Source: Methylacidimicrobium cyclopophantes
GTDB lineage: Bacteria; Verrucomicrobiota; Verrucomicrobiia; Methylacidiphilales; Methylacidiphilaceae
Assembly (NCBI RefSeq): GCF_902143385.2
Contig: NZ_CABFUZ020000259.1
Location: 1 to 45,105 of the forward strand
Reading direction: 5' to 3'
Length of the DNA: 45,105 nucleotides
A program made the position numbers and the translations under genes. This document shows, piece by piece, positions 32,991-45,105 of the stretch (its first letter is position 1; the number at the start of each line of letters is the position of its first letter). The notes beneath the pieces were generated by a model. It was given only the letters and a program-made list of their open reading frames with translations, had not been told where the DNA came from and did not search any database.

Positions 32991-35123
32991 GTGGCTCGGC
33001 TGGAGACGCTGTTTTGGGTTGACGCTGACCGGTTTTGCGCGCTATCTGCCGACGTTCCTATGCGATCCGGCAAATTGTTTTCCCAACCTTCCGAAGGCAA
33101 AACGAAAACAAAGCCCGTCTTGGTGATCGAGGAGACACTCGACCATGCCCAAGCGGTCGGGCTGGCCGTTGCCCGAGCGCAAAGCTATCTTCTCTCCACC
33201 CAAAAGCCCGATGGACATTGGGTGGGAGAGCTCTTTGCCGATGTGACCCTGGCTTGTGATCGAATCTTGCTCATGCATTGGCTCGGCAAGGTCGATTATC
33301 GCAAGCAGGCCCGATTCGTAAAACACATCCTGGATCGGCAGTTGCCCGACGGCGGCTGGAATATCTACCCCGGGGGTCCCAGCGAACTCAACGCGACGAT
33401 CAAAGCCTACGCCGCCCTCAAGTTGGCGGGTTTCGCCCCGGAGGATCCGGTGATGGAGCGGGCTCGGTCAACGATCCTACGGCTGGGAGGGATTCCCAAG
33501 TCGATGACCTACACGAAGTTGGGATTGGCACTCCTTGGCATCTATCCTTGGCATCAGCTCCCGGTGATTCCGCCGGAGATCATGCTTTTCCCGTCCTGGT
33601 TCCCCTTTCATCTCTACAAGATGTCGGCTTGGACCCGGACGATGCTGGTCCCTTTGATGATCATCCACCACTTCAAGCCGACCCGCCAGCTTCCCCTCCA
33701 TCTGCAACTGCATGAGCTCTTTCCTGCGGGCGCGGAGCAGGAAGGCCTTTCCTGGATTTGGTCCGCGAAGCTCTTTTCCAAAAGGAATTTCTTCTTGCTT
33801 TGCGACAAGCTGCTCCAACTTTGGGACCGTTCTCCTTGGAAGCCTCTGCGAGCTCGGGCCTTGAAAAAGGCGGAGGAGTGGTTGACGCAGCGGATGGGAG
33901 CCGGCTCCGACGGCCTCGGGGCGATCTTCCCGGCGATGCACTATGCGATCGTCGCGCTCAAGGCCTTGGGATATCCCGAGGAGAATCCCCTCTACCAGAA
34001 AGCGGTTCGCGACTTCGAGGGTCTGGAGGTAGACGAAGGGGAAGAGCGCGACTTTCGGGTCCAACCTTGCCTTTCGCCCGTCTGGGATACGGCGGTCGCG
34101 GGCGTGGCCTTGAGCAAGTCCGGGTTGCCTCTCGATCAGGCGGAGCTTCGCAAAGCGGCCGCCTGGCTCATGGAGCGAGAAATTCAGGTGCGGGGCGACT
34201 GGTACGTAAACAATCCCCATCCGGAATGCAGCGGTTGGGCATTTGAGTATAACAACGTCTATTATCCCGATGTCGACGACACGCTGATGGTGCTTCTCGC
34301 GTTGTTGCGCATCGAGACCGAAGATGAGGAGAGAAAGCGGGAAGTGATCGACCGGGCTTTCCGCTGGGTAGTCAGCTTTCAATGCCGGAACGGCGGTTGG
34401 GCGGCCTTCGATAAAGACGTCAACAGCCCCTGGCTCGAGGACGTGCCTTTTGCCGACCACAATGCCATCCTCGATCCGCCCTGCTCCGACATCACCGCCA
34501 GAGCCCTTGAGCTGGCAGGGATGTTGGGAGTCAAGCGCACCGAGCCTTTCGTGCAGCGGGGAATCCGCTTTCTCCGGGAGACGCAGGAATCCGACGGCTC
34601 GTGGTTCGGTCGATGGGGAGTGAACTATGTCTACGGGACATGGCAAGCGCTCCGTGGATTACGAGCGATCGGGGAGGACATGAACCAACAGTGGATTTTG
34701 CGGGCGCGTGACTGGTTGGAATCCTGTCAGAACGAGGATGGCGGATGGGGAGAAACGCCGGATTCCTACGAAAACCCTCAGCTCAAAGGTAGGGGACCGA
34801 GTACCGCTTCGCAAACGGCCTGGGCGATCATGGGAATTCTTGCGTGCGGAGAAGCCGATCGACCCAGCGTGCGGCGAGGGGTTTCCTATCTTCTGCGGAA
34901 GCAGGATCCGGACGGTTCTTGGCCGGAAGAGTTCCTTACGGGCACGGGATTTCCGGGTGTCTTTTATCTGAAATACGACATGTACCGGAATGCCTGGCCC
35001 CTGCTTGCGCTCTCCGAGTATGCCAAAGCCCTCTCGGCGGCGAAGGAACAGACCGAGGCTTGGGTTCGTGCCACCCTCTCCGTCGCGGTTCGCTCCCGTT
35101 CCAGCGCCGGCGGAATCGGATGA
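32991..35123 (+). CDS. shc: Squalene-hopene cyclase
   Basis: A monotopic membrane enzyme cyclising squalene to hopene/diplopterol. From the GTG at 32991 it has 710 residues; an in-frame ATG at 33060 would give 687 and is a possible true start, as neither has strong ribosome-binding signals at ideal spacing. The catalytic DxDD motif is PDVDDT (Asp427, Asp429, Asp430 in the longer numbering). Several QW-type repeats occur, such as QLPDGGWNIYP, QCRNGGWAAFD, QESDGSWFGRW, QNEDGGWGETP and QDPDGSWPEE. The stop overlaps the hpnG start (ATGA). Squalene synthesis genes (hpnCDE) are not in this window. Confidence 0.97.
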   Translation: MARLETLFWVDADRFCALSADVPMRSGKLFSQPSEGKTKTKPVLVIEETLDHAQAVGLAVARAQSYLLSTQKPDGHWVGELFADVTLACDRILLMHWLGKVDYRKQARFVKHILDRQLPDGGWNIYPGGPSELNATIKAYAALKLAGFAPEDPVMERARSTILRLGGIPKSMTYTKLGLALLGIYPWHQLPVIPPEIMLFPSWFPFHLYKMSAWTRTMLVPLMIIHHFKPTRQLPLHLQLHELFPAGAEQEGLSWIWSAKLFSKRNFFLLCDKLLQLWDRSPWKPLRARALKKAEEWLTQRMGAGSDGLGAIFPAMHYAIVALKALGYPEENPLYQKAVRDFEGLEVDEGEERDFRVQPCLSPVWDTAVAGVALSKSGLPLDQAELRKAAAWLMEREIQVRGDWYVNNPHPECSGWAFEYNNVYYPDVDDTLMVLLALLRIETEDEERKREVIDRAFRWVVSFQCRNGGWAAFDKDVNSPWLEDVPFADHNAILDPPCSDITARALELAGMLGVKRTEPFVQRGIRFLRETQESDGSWFGRWGVNYVYGTWQALRGLRAIGEDMNQQWILRARDWLESCQNEDGGWGETPDSYENPQLKGRGPSTASQTAWAIMGILACGEADRPSVRRGVSYLLRKQDPDGSWPEEFLTGTGFPGVFYLKYDMYRNAWPLLALSEYAKALSAAKEQTEAWVRATLSVAVRSRSSAGGIG

Positions 35124-38861: not shown

Positions 38862-40196
38862 TCATGACGCTTGGGAGACAGAAGAGAAGGTAAATTCCTT
38901 GGCGACGAGCGCCGGCACGCAAGCGGGCAGATCGTCGATCTCCGACCCGACCGTCGCCTCGGGCTTTCCCAGAGCGAGAACATTTTTGAGAAGGTTCACC
39001 GGGCTTTCGTTGAATCGGAAGTTGTTCACCGGATGGGCGATCTTCCCCTTTTCGATCCAAAAGGTTCCGTCCCGGGTCAGGCCCGTGAGGAGGAGTGTGC
39101 GCGGATCCACCGTCCGGATATACCAGAGCCGGGTGATCAACAGGCCTCGATCGATGCCCTGGATCAATTCTTCCCTCGATCGATCGCCGCCCGACAGGAG
39201 CAGATTCGTCGGCTCGGGAACTACCGGAGCCTTCTTCTCCTGTGCCCAAAATCGCGAGCGGATCAACTCGCGCAGCGTGCCTCTCTCGATCCAGCTCCGC
39301 GGTGCGGCGGGCAGCCCGTCGGTCGAATAGATGGAGCCGGGTGCCGTGGAGTCTCCTGGATCCGAGCGAAGAGTGACGGAATCCGCAAAGAGCTTCTCGC
39401 CCAGAAGAGTCCCTCCTCCCGGCCGAGAAAGAAAGCTTCTCCCCTCGTCGGCAGGACGGGCCTGGAGGGAAAGCAAGAGGAAACCGACTAGATCGCATAC
39501 GGCCGAAGGCTCGAGCAGAACGGTGAATTGTCCCGGGTCGAGGGCTTGCGGATGACGCGAGCGCAGAGCCTTTTCCATTGCCTGCTCCACGAGGGAGCGG
39601 AGGGAAATCTCGGCGGGAGAATAGGCTGCGACTGCGGCCCACCCCGCCCCTTCCCCATCTCGGGTTCGTGCGGAGACCGCGTAGTGCAAGCGAGTCGCCT
39701 GCTGAAAGACCCAAAGGCCGGTCGTGGCCATATAGGCCGAAAAGCTGGTTTCACATTCCAGAAAAGCGGCCCCGATGACCCGCTTGGCCTCCGCCGCCGC
39801 AAGAATCGTCGTGGCCTGCTCGGCGAGGGCCTTTGCCGTCAACCGCGCCGCCTCCGCGGAATAGCCCTGGGCGGCGGGATAGATTTGGGGGGGAGGAGGA
39901 GGAAGAAATTCGGGATCTTCCGGAGAAATTCGCGCGATCTCTTCGGATCGCCGGACGAGCGAGGCGAGGTCGCCAGGGTCCGCCTTATTCCCCGCAGCTT
40001 CTCCTCGACGCTTCCCGAAGGAGGATTCGACGCGGCAATGGAAGCCCTCGTCCTCGCCGTCTGTCGTGACCGTATTGCGGGCAATGCGGACGTTGAGGCG
40101 GGTCCAGCCCGAGATCTCGGCGACGGCGGTTTCCGCCCGGGAGTAGGAGAGGAGCTTGGTGCCAATTTCCCGGACTTCCCCTTCCGAGAGGATCAT
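38862..40196 (-). CDS. pmbA: TldE/PmbA-type metallopeptidase subunit
   Basis: A 444-residue PmbA/TldE family protein, the non-catalytic partner in the TldD-TldE heterodimeric protease that processes peptides such as microcin B17 and CcdA in E. coli. Conserved PmbA regions are seen near the C-terminus (RTVDPRTLLLTGLTRDGTFWIEKGKIAHPVNNFRFNES). It carries no HExxxH zinc motif and no signal peptide. The ATG at 40196 is preceded by GGGAGG at good spacing and overlaps the tldD stop (ATGA), so the two subunits are made together. Confidence 0.92.
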   Translation of the reverse strand: MILSEGEVREIGTKLLSYSRAETAVAEISGWTRLNVRIARNTVTTDGEDEGFHCRVESSFGKRRGEAAGNKADPGDLASLVRRSEEIARISPEDPEFLPPPPPQIYPAAQGYSAEAARLTAKALAEQATTILAAAEAKRVIGAAFLECETSFSAYMATTGLWVFQQATRLHYAVSARTRDGEGAGWAAVAAYSPAEISLRSLVEQAMEKALRSRHPQALDPGQFTVLLEPSAVCDLVGFLLLSLQARPADEGRSFLSRPGGGTLLGEKLFADSVTLRSDPGDSTAPGSIYSTDGLPAAPRSWIERGTLRELIRSRFWAQEKKAPVVPEPTNLLLSGGDRSREELIQGIDRGLLITRLWYIRTVDPRTLLLTGLTRDGTFWIEKGKIAHPVNNFRFNESPVNLLKNVLALGKPEATVGSEIDDLPACVPALVAKEFTFSSVSQAS

Positions 40197-41761
40197 GCTC
40201 CCCTCCCGGTATTCAGCACATGGATGCCCCGAAAGCGAGCGGGTACGACTCCATGAGAAACCGGAGCCGATTGGACCGGCTGTCCCTTCCCGCAAGAAAG
40301 GGTTCCCCCGAGCCAGTACTCCTTTGCGCCGCCGAGGCCGTCACAAGCATTCCAGAACGGCACGGTGGTCCCTTGGTAGGCAACGTCCCGGAGCATCTCC
40401 CCGAGCTTGCCCTTCCGGATTTCGTAGAAGAGCTGCCCTCCAAACTGAAAGTTTTTCCGTTGTTGATCAATGCTCCAGCTTCCGTCTCCGACGATGTAAA
40501 TCCCATCCTCGACGCCGGCGATCAACTCCTCCAGGGAGACATCCCGTTCCGACGGCTGCAAGGAGATGTTGGGCATGCGCTGGATCGGGAAGTAGGCGTG
40601 TCCCTCCGCGAAGGAGCAGGCGTTCGAATGAGGCAGGCCGATCCAGCGAGACTGGCCGATCGCCATTTGAAAATTTTCGAAGCGTCCTCGGGAGATGATC
40701 GGAAATCGAGCGAAGCGCGCCGGCATTCCATCGTCGTCGTAGGCCGCGGTCGCCAAGCCTCCCGGCTGATCCCGATCGGCCATCACCGTCACGATCTCGC
40801 TGGCAAAGCGCAAGCGGCCTCGGTCGGATGGCTTGACAAAGGTGGTACCGGCAAAACCCGCTTCATAGCCGAAGGCCCGATCGAGCTCGGTCGAGTGGCC
40901 GATCGTCTCGTGCAGGGTAAGCCACAGGTTCGTCGGATGAATTACCAGATCCTTCTTCCCCGCGGTGACAGGTTTGGCCTGGAGCTTGCGGCGTGCGTCT
41001 TCCGCCGCCTGCCGCGCCTCGAGCTTCCAATCATGGGATAAGACGTACTCGAAGCCGGCCGCCCTGGGTGGCAGGAGACTCGATCGGCTGGCGAAGCGTC
41101 CCGTTTTCGGATCGGTGGCGGTGACGGTGAGGTGGGGATAGGTTCGGAAGAAGAGCTGCTCGAGAAAGGAGCCGCGGCTCGACGCGAAAAACTTTTCCTG
41201 CCGAACGAAAAGGAAGAAGCTCCGACAGAAAGGAGCCCCGGCCGCCCGAGCTTCCGCATTGATTTTCAGGAGCTGCTCCGCCTTGCGATCCAGAGGGATG
41301 GCGAAAGGGTCCTGCTCGGTAGGCACGCGCCAGCGGTCGGTCTTTGCTTCGATCGACTCCAGTTCGACGAGCTGGGTCGCGAGAACTCGGTTGGCCTTGG
41401 CTACTTCTACCGCGTTTCGTGCGCACGCGGACGCATGGGCCGGGTCGAGTACGCTCGTCGAGCTGAATCCCCAAACCCCGTTGACAAGGACACGTACGCC
41501 GAGACCGCTGCTGGTCGACACCTCGACGTTCTCAATGCGCTCTTCTCGGGCCGACAGCAGTTCCGACTCGGTAAAAAGAACGCGTAGGTCGGCATATCCG
41601 GCTCCCGCGGTGCGAGCGGAGTCCAAGGCCGCCTCCGCGAGCCGAGCGGCTTCTTCCCGACGGGAAGAGGGGTCGTCGGACGATGCAGCGGCCAAAGGAG
41701 AGCCGCCTCCGAGAAGGCCGGCAGCCAGGCTTTGAAGAAATTTTCTGCGGGAGATGCTCAT
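40193..41761 (-). CDS. tldD: TldD-type metallopeptidase with Tat signal
   Basis: A 522-residue TldD family zinc peptidase. The active-site helix HETIGHSTELD holds His284, Glu285 and His289. The N-terminus MSISRRKFLQSLAAGLLGG is a clear twin-arginine signal (SRRKFLQ followed by a hydrophobic stretch and an Ala-rich cleavage region near residue 26), whereas E. coli TldD is cytosolic. The start is ATG at 41761, with GGAGA about 14 bases upstream. It is the first gene of the pair with pmbA and divergent from the M20 gene. Export of the folded protein is predicted; the partner has no signal. Confidence 0.92.
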   Translation of the reverse strand: MSISRRKFLQSLAAGLLGGGSPLAAASSDDPSSRREEAARLAEAALDSARTAGAGYADLRVLFTESELLSAREERIENVEVSTSSGLGVRVLVNGVWGFSSTSVLDPAHASACARNAVEVAKANRVLATQLVELESIEAKTDRWRVPTEQDPFAIPLDRKAEQLLKINAEARAAGAPFCRSFFLFVRQEKFFASSRGSFLEQLFFRTYPHLTVTATDPKTGRFASRSSLLPPRAAGFEYVLSHDWKLEARQAAEDARRKLQAKPVTAGKKDLVIHPTNLWLTLHETIGHSTELDRAFGYEAGFAGTTFVKPSDRGRLRFASEIVTVMADRDQPGGLATAAYDDDGMPARFARFPIISRGRFENFQMAIGQSRWIGLPHSNACSFAEGHAYFPIQRMPNISLQPSERDVSLEELIAGVEDGIYIVGDGSWSIDQQRKNFQFGGQLFYEIRKGKLGEMLRDVAYQGTTVPFWNACDGLGGAKEYWLGGTLSCGKGQPVQSAPVSHGVVPARFRGIHVLNTGRGA

Positions 41762-41931
41762 CGCATTCCGTACTCGGTCTCCTTTTACCCATAGCAAGGT
41801 CCGGAGGGCGGGGGCAAGGGCCGGTTTGTTCTTTCCAAGGGGGATCGCGGCCGGCGAAGGGAGGAGAGAGCGTACCGAGAAAAAGGCTGCGATCGCGTGC
41901 CGCCGTGATAAAAAGAAAGAAGAGGCAAAAC

Positions 41932-43188
41932 GTGAATATCGACGCGGAAGCTTGGCTGGAAAATCACCTGGGTGAGCTCTGCGCCTTTCTCGGCGAGCTC
42001 GTGCGCATTCCGACTGTGAATCCTCCCGGACGCAATTATACGGTTCTGGTCGAAAGACTGGAAACGAAGCTGCGGGAGCTCGACTTATCCGTCGAGAGGT
42101 TAACCGTTCCCGAGGAGGTTGCCGCAAAGTCCCTGCCTCCCGGCTCCGCCGATTTGCCGCGGCACAACGTTATCGGCAGATGGGATGTCGGAGCCAAAAA
42201 GACCGTTCAGTTCAATTCCCACTACGACGTGGTTCCGGAGGCGGGAGCTTGGAAGCACGATCCTTTTTCCGGAGAGCGCGACGGCGACTGGCTTTTCGGC
42301 CGGGGGACCGCCGACATGAAGGGATCGCTTGTCGCGAGCCTCTTCGCGGTCGAAGCGCTCCGGCGAACGGGCATCCGGCCGCGGGTGAACGTGGAGCTCG
42401 CTTTCGTGGCCGACGAGGAGATCGGCGGAGAGCTCGGCACAGGGTATCTCGTCAGCCATCGCAGAGAGCTTCCGGATTTTGCCATCGTTTGCGAAGGGGG
42501 AGCGGCGGGCAAAATCGGGATCGGCCATAACGGCATTGTGCAATTGGAGGTGACGGTCCTCGGCAAAGGAGGGCATTCGGCCTATCCTAGGGGGACGGTA
42601 AACGCTTTCGAGCGGATGATCGCTTTCGCCGCGAGCCTCGAGCCGCGGATCAAGGAGACGTTGGCCGATCCTCGGAAGCGGTTCACGACCCCGTCGGGCG
42701 AAAGGTTGGAGCCCGTGGTCAATCTGGGAGGGATCTTCGGACCCGGAAAGGCGGGGAAGGTGAACATCATTCCTGGCGAAGCCCACTTCACGATCGATCG
42801 CCGGCTTACTCCGGTCGAGGAGGTGCCGGTAGTGGAGAAGGAATTGCGGGAAATGATCCGATCGACCGCCGAGCGGTGTCGAGCGGGAATTCGGATTCGA
42901 AAGATCCATACGACGGCTCCGTGTGCGCTCTCGCCTCGTTCCGTGCTGCCCCAGCAGTTCCGAAAGGCGGTGGAGGCGGTACGGGGAGGACATGCGCGTT
43001 TCACCGTCAATCGAGGAGCGACCGATATGCACTACTACGCTCGAAAACGGGGCATCGATACGATCGGCTACGGGGTTGAGGGGAAAAACATCCACGGAGG
43101 CGAGGAACGGATTCCTGTCGACGATCTAGTGACCACCGCGCAGGTGTACGCTCGATTTCTGCGCGATTTCGCCCCTACGGGGCCGTAG
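41932..43188 (+). CDS. M20-family metallopeptidase/deacylase
   Basis: A 418-residue cytosolic M20 enzyme (ArgE/DapE/carboxypeptidase G2 type). Metal-binding and catalytic residues are visible in SHYDVVP (His, Asp), GRGTADMKG (Asp), DEEIGG (Glu-Glu) and the C-terminal NIHGGEERIPVDDL (His). The dimerisation domain lies between, around GKGGHSAYPRGTVNAFERM. The substrate, amino-acid amide or dipeptide, cannot be decided; the ArgE, DapE and dipeptidase branches share these motifs. The start is GTG at 41932 behind AGAGG; the frame upstream reads the divergent tldD leader. The 170 bases to tldD presumably hold both promoters. Confidence 0.9.
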   Translation: MNIDAEAWLENHLGELCAFLGELVRIPTVNPPGRNYTVLVERLETKLRELDLSVERLTVPEEVAAKSLPPGSADLPRHNVIGRWDVGAKKTVQFNSHYDVVPEAGAWKHDPFSGERDGDWLFGRGTADMKGSLVASLFAVEALRRTGIRPRVNVELAFVADEEIGGELGTGYLVSHRRELPDFAIVCEGGAAGKIGIGHNGIVQLEVTVLGKGGHSAYPRGTVNAFERMIAFAASLEPRIKETLADPRKRFTTPSGERLEPVVNLGGIFGPGKAGKVNIIPGEAHFTIDRRLTPVEEVPVVEKELREMIRSTAERCRAGIRIRKIHTTAPCALSPRSVLPQQFRKAVEAVRGGHARFTVNRGATDMHYYARKRGIDTIGYGVEGKNIHGGEERIPVDDLVTTAQVYARFLRDFAPTGP

Positions 43189-43968: not shown

Positions 43969-45062
43969 ATGGAGGCGACGCTGGGAATCGAAGGCGGAGC
44001 TACCAAGACGACCTGGGTTGTCTTGGATGCCGAAGGTCGGGTTCAAGCGACGGGTCGAATCGGTCCGGGAAACGTCAGCTTGCTCCGGGAGGAGGAGCTC
44101 CGGGCCTTGCTCGCCGCGATCCGCACGGAAACGGGGGGACAGTTTCATTCCATCGGAGCGGCTTTTGCCGGTTGCCATCTGGCGGCGCAGCGGGAGCGAA
44201 TTGCGGGACTGCTGCGCGTCTTTTGGCCGTCGGCAAAGAGGGTGGTGGTCGCCGAAGATGCGCACTCGGCCTTCGCGGGCGCTTTCGGTTCCGGAGAGGG
44301 GATTGTCGTCATTGCGGGAACGGGCTCGAACGTGCGGGGATACCGAGAAGGGCGCTGGGCGCGGGCCGGTGGCTGGGGCCATATTTTGGGAGATCCCGGC
44401 AGCGCGTACGACTTGGCCCATATCGCTCTCCAGCGAGTCTACGATGCGTTTGACGCCACGGAGGGCCTTGTCCCGCTGGGCGAGTCCTTTCTGGAAAGAA
44501 CCGGCCAGAAAGATCTGGAGGAACTTTTCGTCTACATCCATTCCGACCCGTCCAAAGATCGCATCGCGGCGCTCGCCCCCTGCGTTCTGGAAAGCGCGGC
44601 CGCGGGCGACCGGTTCGCCGTCGACGTCGTCCTTTCCCGGTGCGGCCTGTTAGCAGACCAGGTGAAATGCGTGGCGGAGAAGCTCCGTTTCGATCGGCCG
44701 AAGGTCGCGCTGGTCGGCGGACTCTTCGAGCACAGCGAAGCCTATGCGCTGCTCTTCGAAGAGCAAGTCCGTTCGCGGCTTGCGGTGAGCACGGTTTTTG
44801 TCTCGCGCGTTCCGGGAGCGGTGGGTGCCGCTCGCTTGGCGGACGAGGCTGCGGAAGAGCATCCGGGGGTCGAGCCGAAGCCGAGTCGCATTCTCTTGCG
44901 AGAGAGCGCGACTTCCCTGGATGGTGCGCTCACCGAAGAGAGAAACCCGAGATCTCGTTTCCTCGATCGAAAGTCGGTTCCGGAACTCGTGGAACTCTTC
45001 CTCGCGGAAGAGCGATTGGTCGAGGAGGCGCTTCGAGAGCGGAAAGAGGAGATTGCCGCTGC
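43969..45062 (+). CDS. BadF-family sugar kinase fused to MurQ-like etherase (3' truncated)
   Basis: A partial protein, 364 genuine residues before the adapter. Residues 1 to about 300 are a BadF/BadG/BcrA/BcrD-type ASKHA kinase: phosphate-1 loop GIEGGATKTTWVVLDAEG, GTGSN and GGWGHILGDPGSAYDLA in the middle, and adenosine-site VALVGGLFE. This family includes GlcNAc kinase and the MurNAc/GlcNAc kinase MurK. From residue 321, TEERNPRSRFLDRKSVPELV matches the N-terminus of MurQ, the MurNAc-6-phosphate etherase, which opens MurNAc-6-P to GlcNAc-6-P and lactate. The frame stays open with no stop between. It would phosphorylate and cleave recycled peptidoglycan sugar in one chain. The ATG at 43969 is used; TTG at 43930 is in frame. 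The rest of the SIS domain lies beyond the contig. Confidence 0.85.
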
Positions 45063-45105
45063 AGATCGGAAGAGCTCGTATGCCGTCTTCTGCTTGAAAA
45101 AAAAA
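45063..45105. other. Illumina adapter read-through and poly-A at right end
   Basis: From 45063 the sequence begins AGATCGGAAGAGCTCGTATG and continues as the reverse complement of the P7-type adapter to 45096, then nine A. This is adapter read-through with typical trailing A, not genome. It continues the reading frame of the last gene, adding 15 false codons (apparent residues ADRKSSYAVFCLKKK) to an uncorrected translation. Confidence 0.97.

Follow-up and report, generated by a model that had tools for sequence, protein, structure and literature searches.

The window analysed here, a complete contig of 45,105 nucleotides from Methylacidimicrobium cyclopophantes, ends within a gene that joins a BadF-type sugar kinase in frame to the N-terminus of the etherase MurQ. 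The fusion of these two enzymes of MurNAc recycling, as a rule separate proteins in bacteria, is real and conserved and is not the oddity of one genome. We predict that this single gene encodes a bifunctional enzyme which would convert MurNAc and ATP to MurNAc-6P and further to GlcNAc-6P and D-lactate, a reading to which we assign a probability of about 80%.

Inspection of open reading frames showed that the frame starting at ATG 43969 stays open up to the end of the contig. An SD-like GGAAGAG lies 9 nt 5’ of this ATG and the relatives from the same genus use the same start position; a longer alternative starting at TTG 43930 is possible. In a profile search PF01869 (BcrAD_BadFG) matched residues 5–291 with E = 3.6e-29 and 102.6 bits (gathering threshold 31.5), covering model positions 1–271, and the domain contains a catalytic-type Asp97 as well as the motifs GTGSN, GGWGH and GDxGS. 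Residues 319/321–365 match the N-terminal positions 2–51 of the MurQ models PRK05441 and TIGR00274 with E = 0.001–0.003; with an HMM built from the relatives the same stretch reached E = 3e-16. The open frame and the matches to both models confirm the stop-free passage from kinase to MurQ described in the earlier note. All features are listed in Table 1.

Table 1. Features at the 3’ end of the window.
Feature	Position	Strand	Remarks
Fused kinase-etherase gene, 5’ part	43969..45062	+	364 whole codons + 2 bases
BadF/BcrA-type sugar kinase domain (PF01869)	43981..44841	+	271/271 model positions
Interdomain linker	44842..44928	+	sequence variable; 25–61 residues among relatives
MurQ N-terminal ~45 residues (LTEERNPRSRFLDRKSV...)	44929..45062	+	continues at G000 C83:1-740
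Illumina adapter and A-run, not genomic	45063..45105	+	also on ends of C258, C271

Genomic sequence ends at position 45062, as had been assumed: positions 45063–45096 are an exact Illumina adapter (AGATCGGAAGAGCTCGTATGCCGTCTTCTGCTTG), followed by A’s. C258 and C271 end in adapter remnants too, which create spurious protein similarity between contigs (RKSSYAVFCLKK), and a second match to the window protein in the same genome, on C271, was rejected as shared adapter. The missing part of MurQ was found elsewhere in the assembly (G000; 2.28 Mb in 273 contigs, the window being contig C259). When this genome was searched with TIGR00274, the window fragment aligned to model positions 2–46 and C83:6-659 to positions 50–267 (247 bits). 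By blastn, the tail of C259 and the head of C83 map to one continuous region in three genomes of the same genus, with several kb matching on either side of the gap and approximately 5 bases missing between the contigs. The C83 frame carries both catalytic glutamates, including the one in EGAEDD (...EGAEDDREAGA...). C83 and the relatives thus bear out the expectation that beyond 45062 the gene completes an SIS/MurQ domain in which both catalytic glutamates are present; the colinearity of C83 and the same joint in the relatives show neither a misjoin nor a continuation other than MurQ, which the earlier note had named as refuting outcomes. A TERNP-like peptide further downstream in C83 (L074:740-880) was discarded as a second MurQ start: its motif is not conserved in the relatives and, judged from the translation, it runs antisense to an endonuclease-III-like gene.

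A window that terminates in adapter sequence raises the question whether kinase and MurQ were falsely joined during assembly. However, the joint lies 134 bases inside the contig, ahead of the adapter, and 36 independent assemblies, among them several closed ones, show it too; we regard the chance of such an artefact as negligible. The full fusion, a protein of about 590 amino acids (~580–670), is encoded in 36 further genomes of Verrucomicrobiota, which belong to 12 families; at L052 a contig end removes its N-terminus. Methylacidiphilum infernorum V4 (L011), whose genome is closed, carries the full fusion. Since joint, linker region and the continuation into MurQ recur in these 36 genomes, the joint is more than chance. 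The gene is present in all 12 relatives belonging to the same family, although in G006, where the contig stops short, just the kinase part is visible. Kinase residues Asp97, G117/G119, G135/G137, Asp142 and Gly144 are invariant in 36/36 fusions, and so are Glu397 and Glu428 of the MurQ half, which we take to be the equivalents of E83 and E114 of E. coli MurQ. A separate scan of contigs with the 379-aa window protein yielded distant kinases only, as the patterns chosen for it are not conserved.

In searches with MurQ profiles the fusion at L004 passed the cut-offs of PRK05441 (320 vs 168 bits) and PRK12570 (280 vs 255 bits). For the equivalog TIGR00274 (cut-off 302 bits) L004 and L011 remained below with 267 and 298 bits, and L076, a member of the smaller of two fusion clades (clade B, see below), lay above with 372 bits. 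In the larger clade A the MurQ half stops at around position 256–268 of models with 291–300 positions and is without ~25–30 C-terminal residues of canonical MurQ; this shortened C-terminus is probably why clade A falls below the TIGR00274 cut-off yet above that of PRK05441. The best structure match of the MurQ half in the L004 model is 4lzj (E = 4e-24). Compared with MurQ of E. coli, H. influenzae and Y. enterocolitica (4lzj, 4s12) the SIS domain is ~42% identical and shares fold and both catalytic glutamates; unlike these proteins the fusion bears an N-terminal kinase, and in clade A the last ~25–30 residues are absent. The SIS domains of GKRP and of bacterial double-SIS relatives are homologous to MurQ, and Pfam names the MurQ half GKRP_SIS_N. 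However, GKRP binds a separate glucokinase, is not an etherase and has two SIS domains plus a lid domain, whereas the fusion has one SIS module behind a true kinase domain.

The kinase half matches the structures of a hexokinase (2e2n, E = 3e-20) and of C. acetobutylicum MurK (8zo3, E = 7e-19), as well as those of human NagK and T. forsythia MurK. By sequence the closest solved kinase to the window domain is the broad-specificity S. tokodaii hexokinase. Besides this hexokinase, the solved relatives include NagK and MurK, which accepts both MurNAc and GlcNAc. Alignment to 8zo3 and 2ch6 located the catalytic Asp and the ATP and sugar motifs of MurK in the fusion. MurKs of C. acetobutylicum and T. 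forsythia (8zo3, 8oqw, 8ow9) belong to the same PF01869 family with the same fold and catalytic Asp and are likewise partnered with MurQ, but they are separate gene products, whereas here the kinase is covalently joined to MurQ. In T. forsythia MurK the small side chains of S133-P134-L135 and T94 leave room for the lactyl ether (PMC10465942). The sugar site of the fusion reads G-G-W and holds no bulky Glu or His; the residue before the catalytic Asp, at the position of T. forsythia T94, is a Glu (E96) instead of Thr (PMC10465942). The position aligned to Asp71 of the S. tokodaii hexokinase is Arg or His in 25/36 fusions. The hexokinase as closest solved kinase, the Glu before the catalytic Asp and the shortened MurQ half of clade A, with its scores under the TIGR00274 cut-off, speak against our reading. 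MurNAc is a plausible substrate. Sequence fails to decide between MurNAc and GlcNAc; being joined to MurQ makes MurNAc, or both sugars, the likelier substrate.

The kinase half could instead act mainly on GlcNAc, like NagK, or on hexosamines broadly. Two parallel entry routes to GlcNAc-6P would then be joined rather than consecutive steps, one starting from GlcNAc released by NagZ and the other from MurNAc-6P supplied from elsewhere. The fusion shares its sugar-site motifs GGWGH and GDxGS with human NagK as well as with C. acetobutylicum MurK, the latter itself slightly prefers GlcNAc (PMC5790795), and G000 contains two GH3 genes, one of them NagZ-like by sequence. On the other hand, the score against the NagK equivalog NF046058 is far under its cut-off (76.5 vs 370 bits). 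Genome searches further revealed exactly one BadF kinase in G000, no match to AnmK and no second MurQ (TIGR00274), leaving no other candidate MurNAc 6-kinase among the BadF and AnmK kinases searched for; if the kinase half did not act on MurNAc, MurQ would be without substrate unless another kinase or a PTS importer supplied it. We rate a chiefly GlcNAc-directed kinase as rather unlikely, at roughly one chance in four, and prefer the consecutive reading with MurNAc as a substrate.

The contrast drawn earlier with E. coli, as an organism using a PTS importer instead of a kinase, is incomplete: E. coli also employs the cytosolic kinase AnmK for recycled anhydro-MurNAc. G000 likewise gave no matches to NagB or AmpG, and a NagA-like deacetylase was detected with 171 bits, under the equivalog cut-off of 226 bits. 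This gene set would fit a recycling route that leads from MurNAc through GlcNAc-6P and GlcN-6P to the cell wall rather than catabolism. The analysis came upon neither an importer nor a source of free MurNAc, which counts against MurNAc salvage. The same two steps are carried out by separate MurK and MurQ proteins in T. forsythia (PMC5790795, PMC10465942). Outside the phylum, where the survey covered plasmid records and a small number of loci, we found adjacent unfused kinase and MurQ genes in four genera (Bradyrhizobium, Rhizobium, Thermomicrobium and Brevibacterium), which links the two functions independently of the fusion. These pairs, for instance that of Thermomicrobium roseum, and likewise murTKQ of T. 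forsythia, provide the same two activities on two proteins, the fusion on one. Three apparent fusions in the four genera were dismissed: single-piece tblastn matches in Rhizobium SSA_523 and Bradyrhizobium are two adjacent genes each, and in Brevibacterium an open MurQ frame of 752 aa is most likely over-long, its N-terminal 430 residues being without Pfam match.

We propose the following course of the reaction. The N-terminal MurK/NagK-like domain would phosphorylate cytoplasmic MurNAc, and probably GlcNAc as well, at O6 at the expense of ATP. The C-terminal MurQ domain, acting as an SIS homodimer, would then cleave the D-lactyl ether off MurNAc-6P through elimination followed by hydration, with GlcNAc-6P and D-lactate as products. 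NagA could deacetylate GlcNAc-6P to GlcN-6P, which would re-enter UDP-GlcNAc and wall synthesis. The benefit of the fusion most likely would be co-expression in equal amounts, with both activities kept close by a flexible tether. As the two activities would be consecutive steps and kinase-MurQ fusions arose repeatedly with the same domain order, the kinase site might also hand MurNAc-6P straight on to the MurQ site. An AlphaFold2 model of the L004 protein from G001 (mean pLDDT 88.7, pTM 0.54) shows two confident domains and a disordered linker at residues 296–310 (pLDDT <50), so that for the single chain no fixed domain arrangement is predicted. In addition linkers differ in length and sequence among the fusions, and relatives of family f3 keep separate, overlapping genes. 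The channelling suggested in the earlier note is hence unsupported and we consider it improbable.

Next, we assessed the origin of the fusion. Kinase and MurQ trees agree in separating the large clade A (families f1, f4, f8, f9, f11, f13, f15, f16, f25 and f31) from clade B (f10 and f19). A single group of all BadF-MurQ fusions was rejected with p-AU = 1.5e-110 for MurQ and p-AU = 0.003 for the kinase, the tested groups having been chosen after viewing the trees and some kinase branches being long. The trees thus indicate that the BadF-MurQ fusion arose more than once. In f3, kinase and murQ are split genes that share a 4-nt overlap formed by the TGA of the former and the GTG of the latter. 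Both trees place them within clade A; this nesting suggests a later fission of the fusion, with weak support (p-AU 0.04 and 0.013). Stand-alone kinase genes at L029 and L019 are also nested within the clade A fusion kinases, and in G030 a single kinase occurs alongside a fusion (L017).

Other domain combinations with MurQ occur as well. A ROK-family sugar kinase precedes a MurQ-like domain at L091:1055-2905:+ and L095:1697-3349:- (families f34 and f29), and the scanned C-terminal part of L101 and L102 shows a MurQ half in the same layout as these loci. NanE (ManNAc-6P epimerase) is fused to MurQ at L093:932-2488:- and L094:1405-2934:+ (families f45 and f34), with a BadF kinase gene overlapping the start of the fusion gene; two routes to GlcNAc-6P would here be placed on one chain. 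With BadF-type fusions having arisen at least twice and ROK-type fusions separately, one may speculate that selection in Verrucomicrobiota repeatedly fused a sugar kinase to MurQ because tethering would alter flux or release of the intermediate, an idea we hold only tentatively and think more probably wrong than right. If true, the fused enzyme would be a new kind of coupled MurNAc-to-GlcNAc-6P converter. Repeated fusions with two kinase families offer a natural test for a kinetic benefit of joining consecutive enzymes. The phylum also commonly has proteins of 510–590 aa in which two MurQ-like stretches are arranged as in GKRP (L098, L100, L103, L105), and L096:2005-6006:+ is an open frame of 1334 aa whose N-terminal part is GKRP/MurQ-like and which also contains a DUF6259 domain.

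In the open-access papers to which our literature search was limited we found no description of a MurK-MurQ or NagK-MurQ fusion. The chemistry is known, and to the extent searchable the one-chain architecture is undescribed; we regard the fusion as an architectural variation on the known MurK/MurQ pathway. If our reading is correct, verrucomicrobial methanotrophs and much of the phylum would possess a one-gene route for MurNAc salvage, in a group whose cell wall was for long a matter of dispute. Annotation by the best-scoring model yields the name MurQ, and the kinase half can stay hidden.

G000 contains two pmoA/amoA-type genes, which point to a verrucomicrobial methanotroph, and a squalene-hopene cyclase gene (hopanoid synthesis) is located at 32991–35123 of the window. 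Just upstream of the fusion, a block at 38862–43188 comprises the gene of a TldD-like metalloprotease, the gene that follows it directly downstream and that of an M20 ArgE/DapE-like peptidase. Genomes of the same genus are colinear over this block, which might have a role in muropeptide processing.
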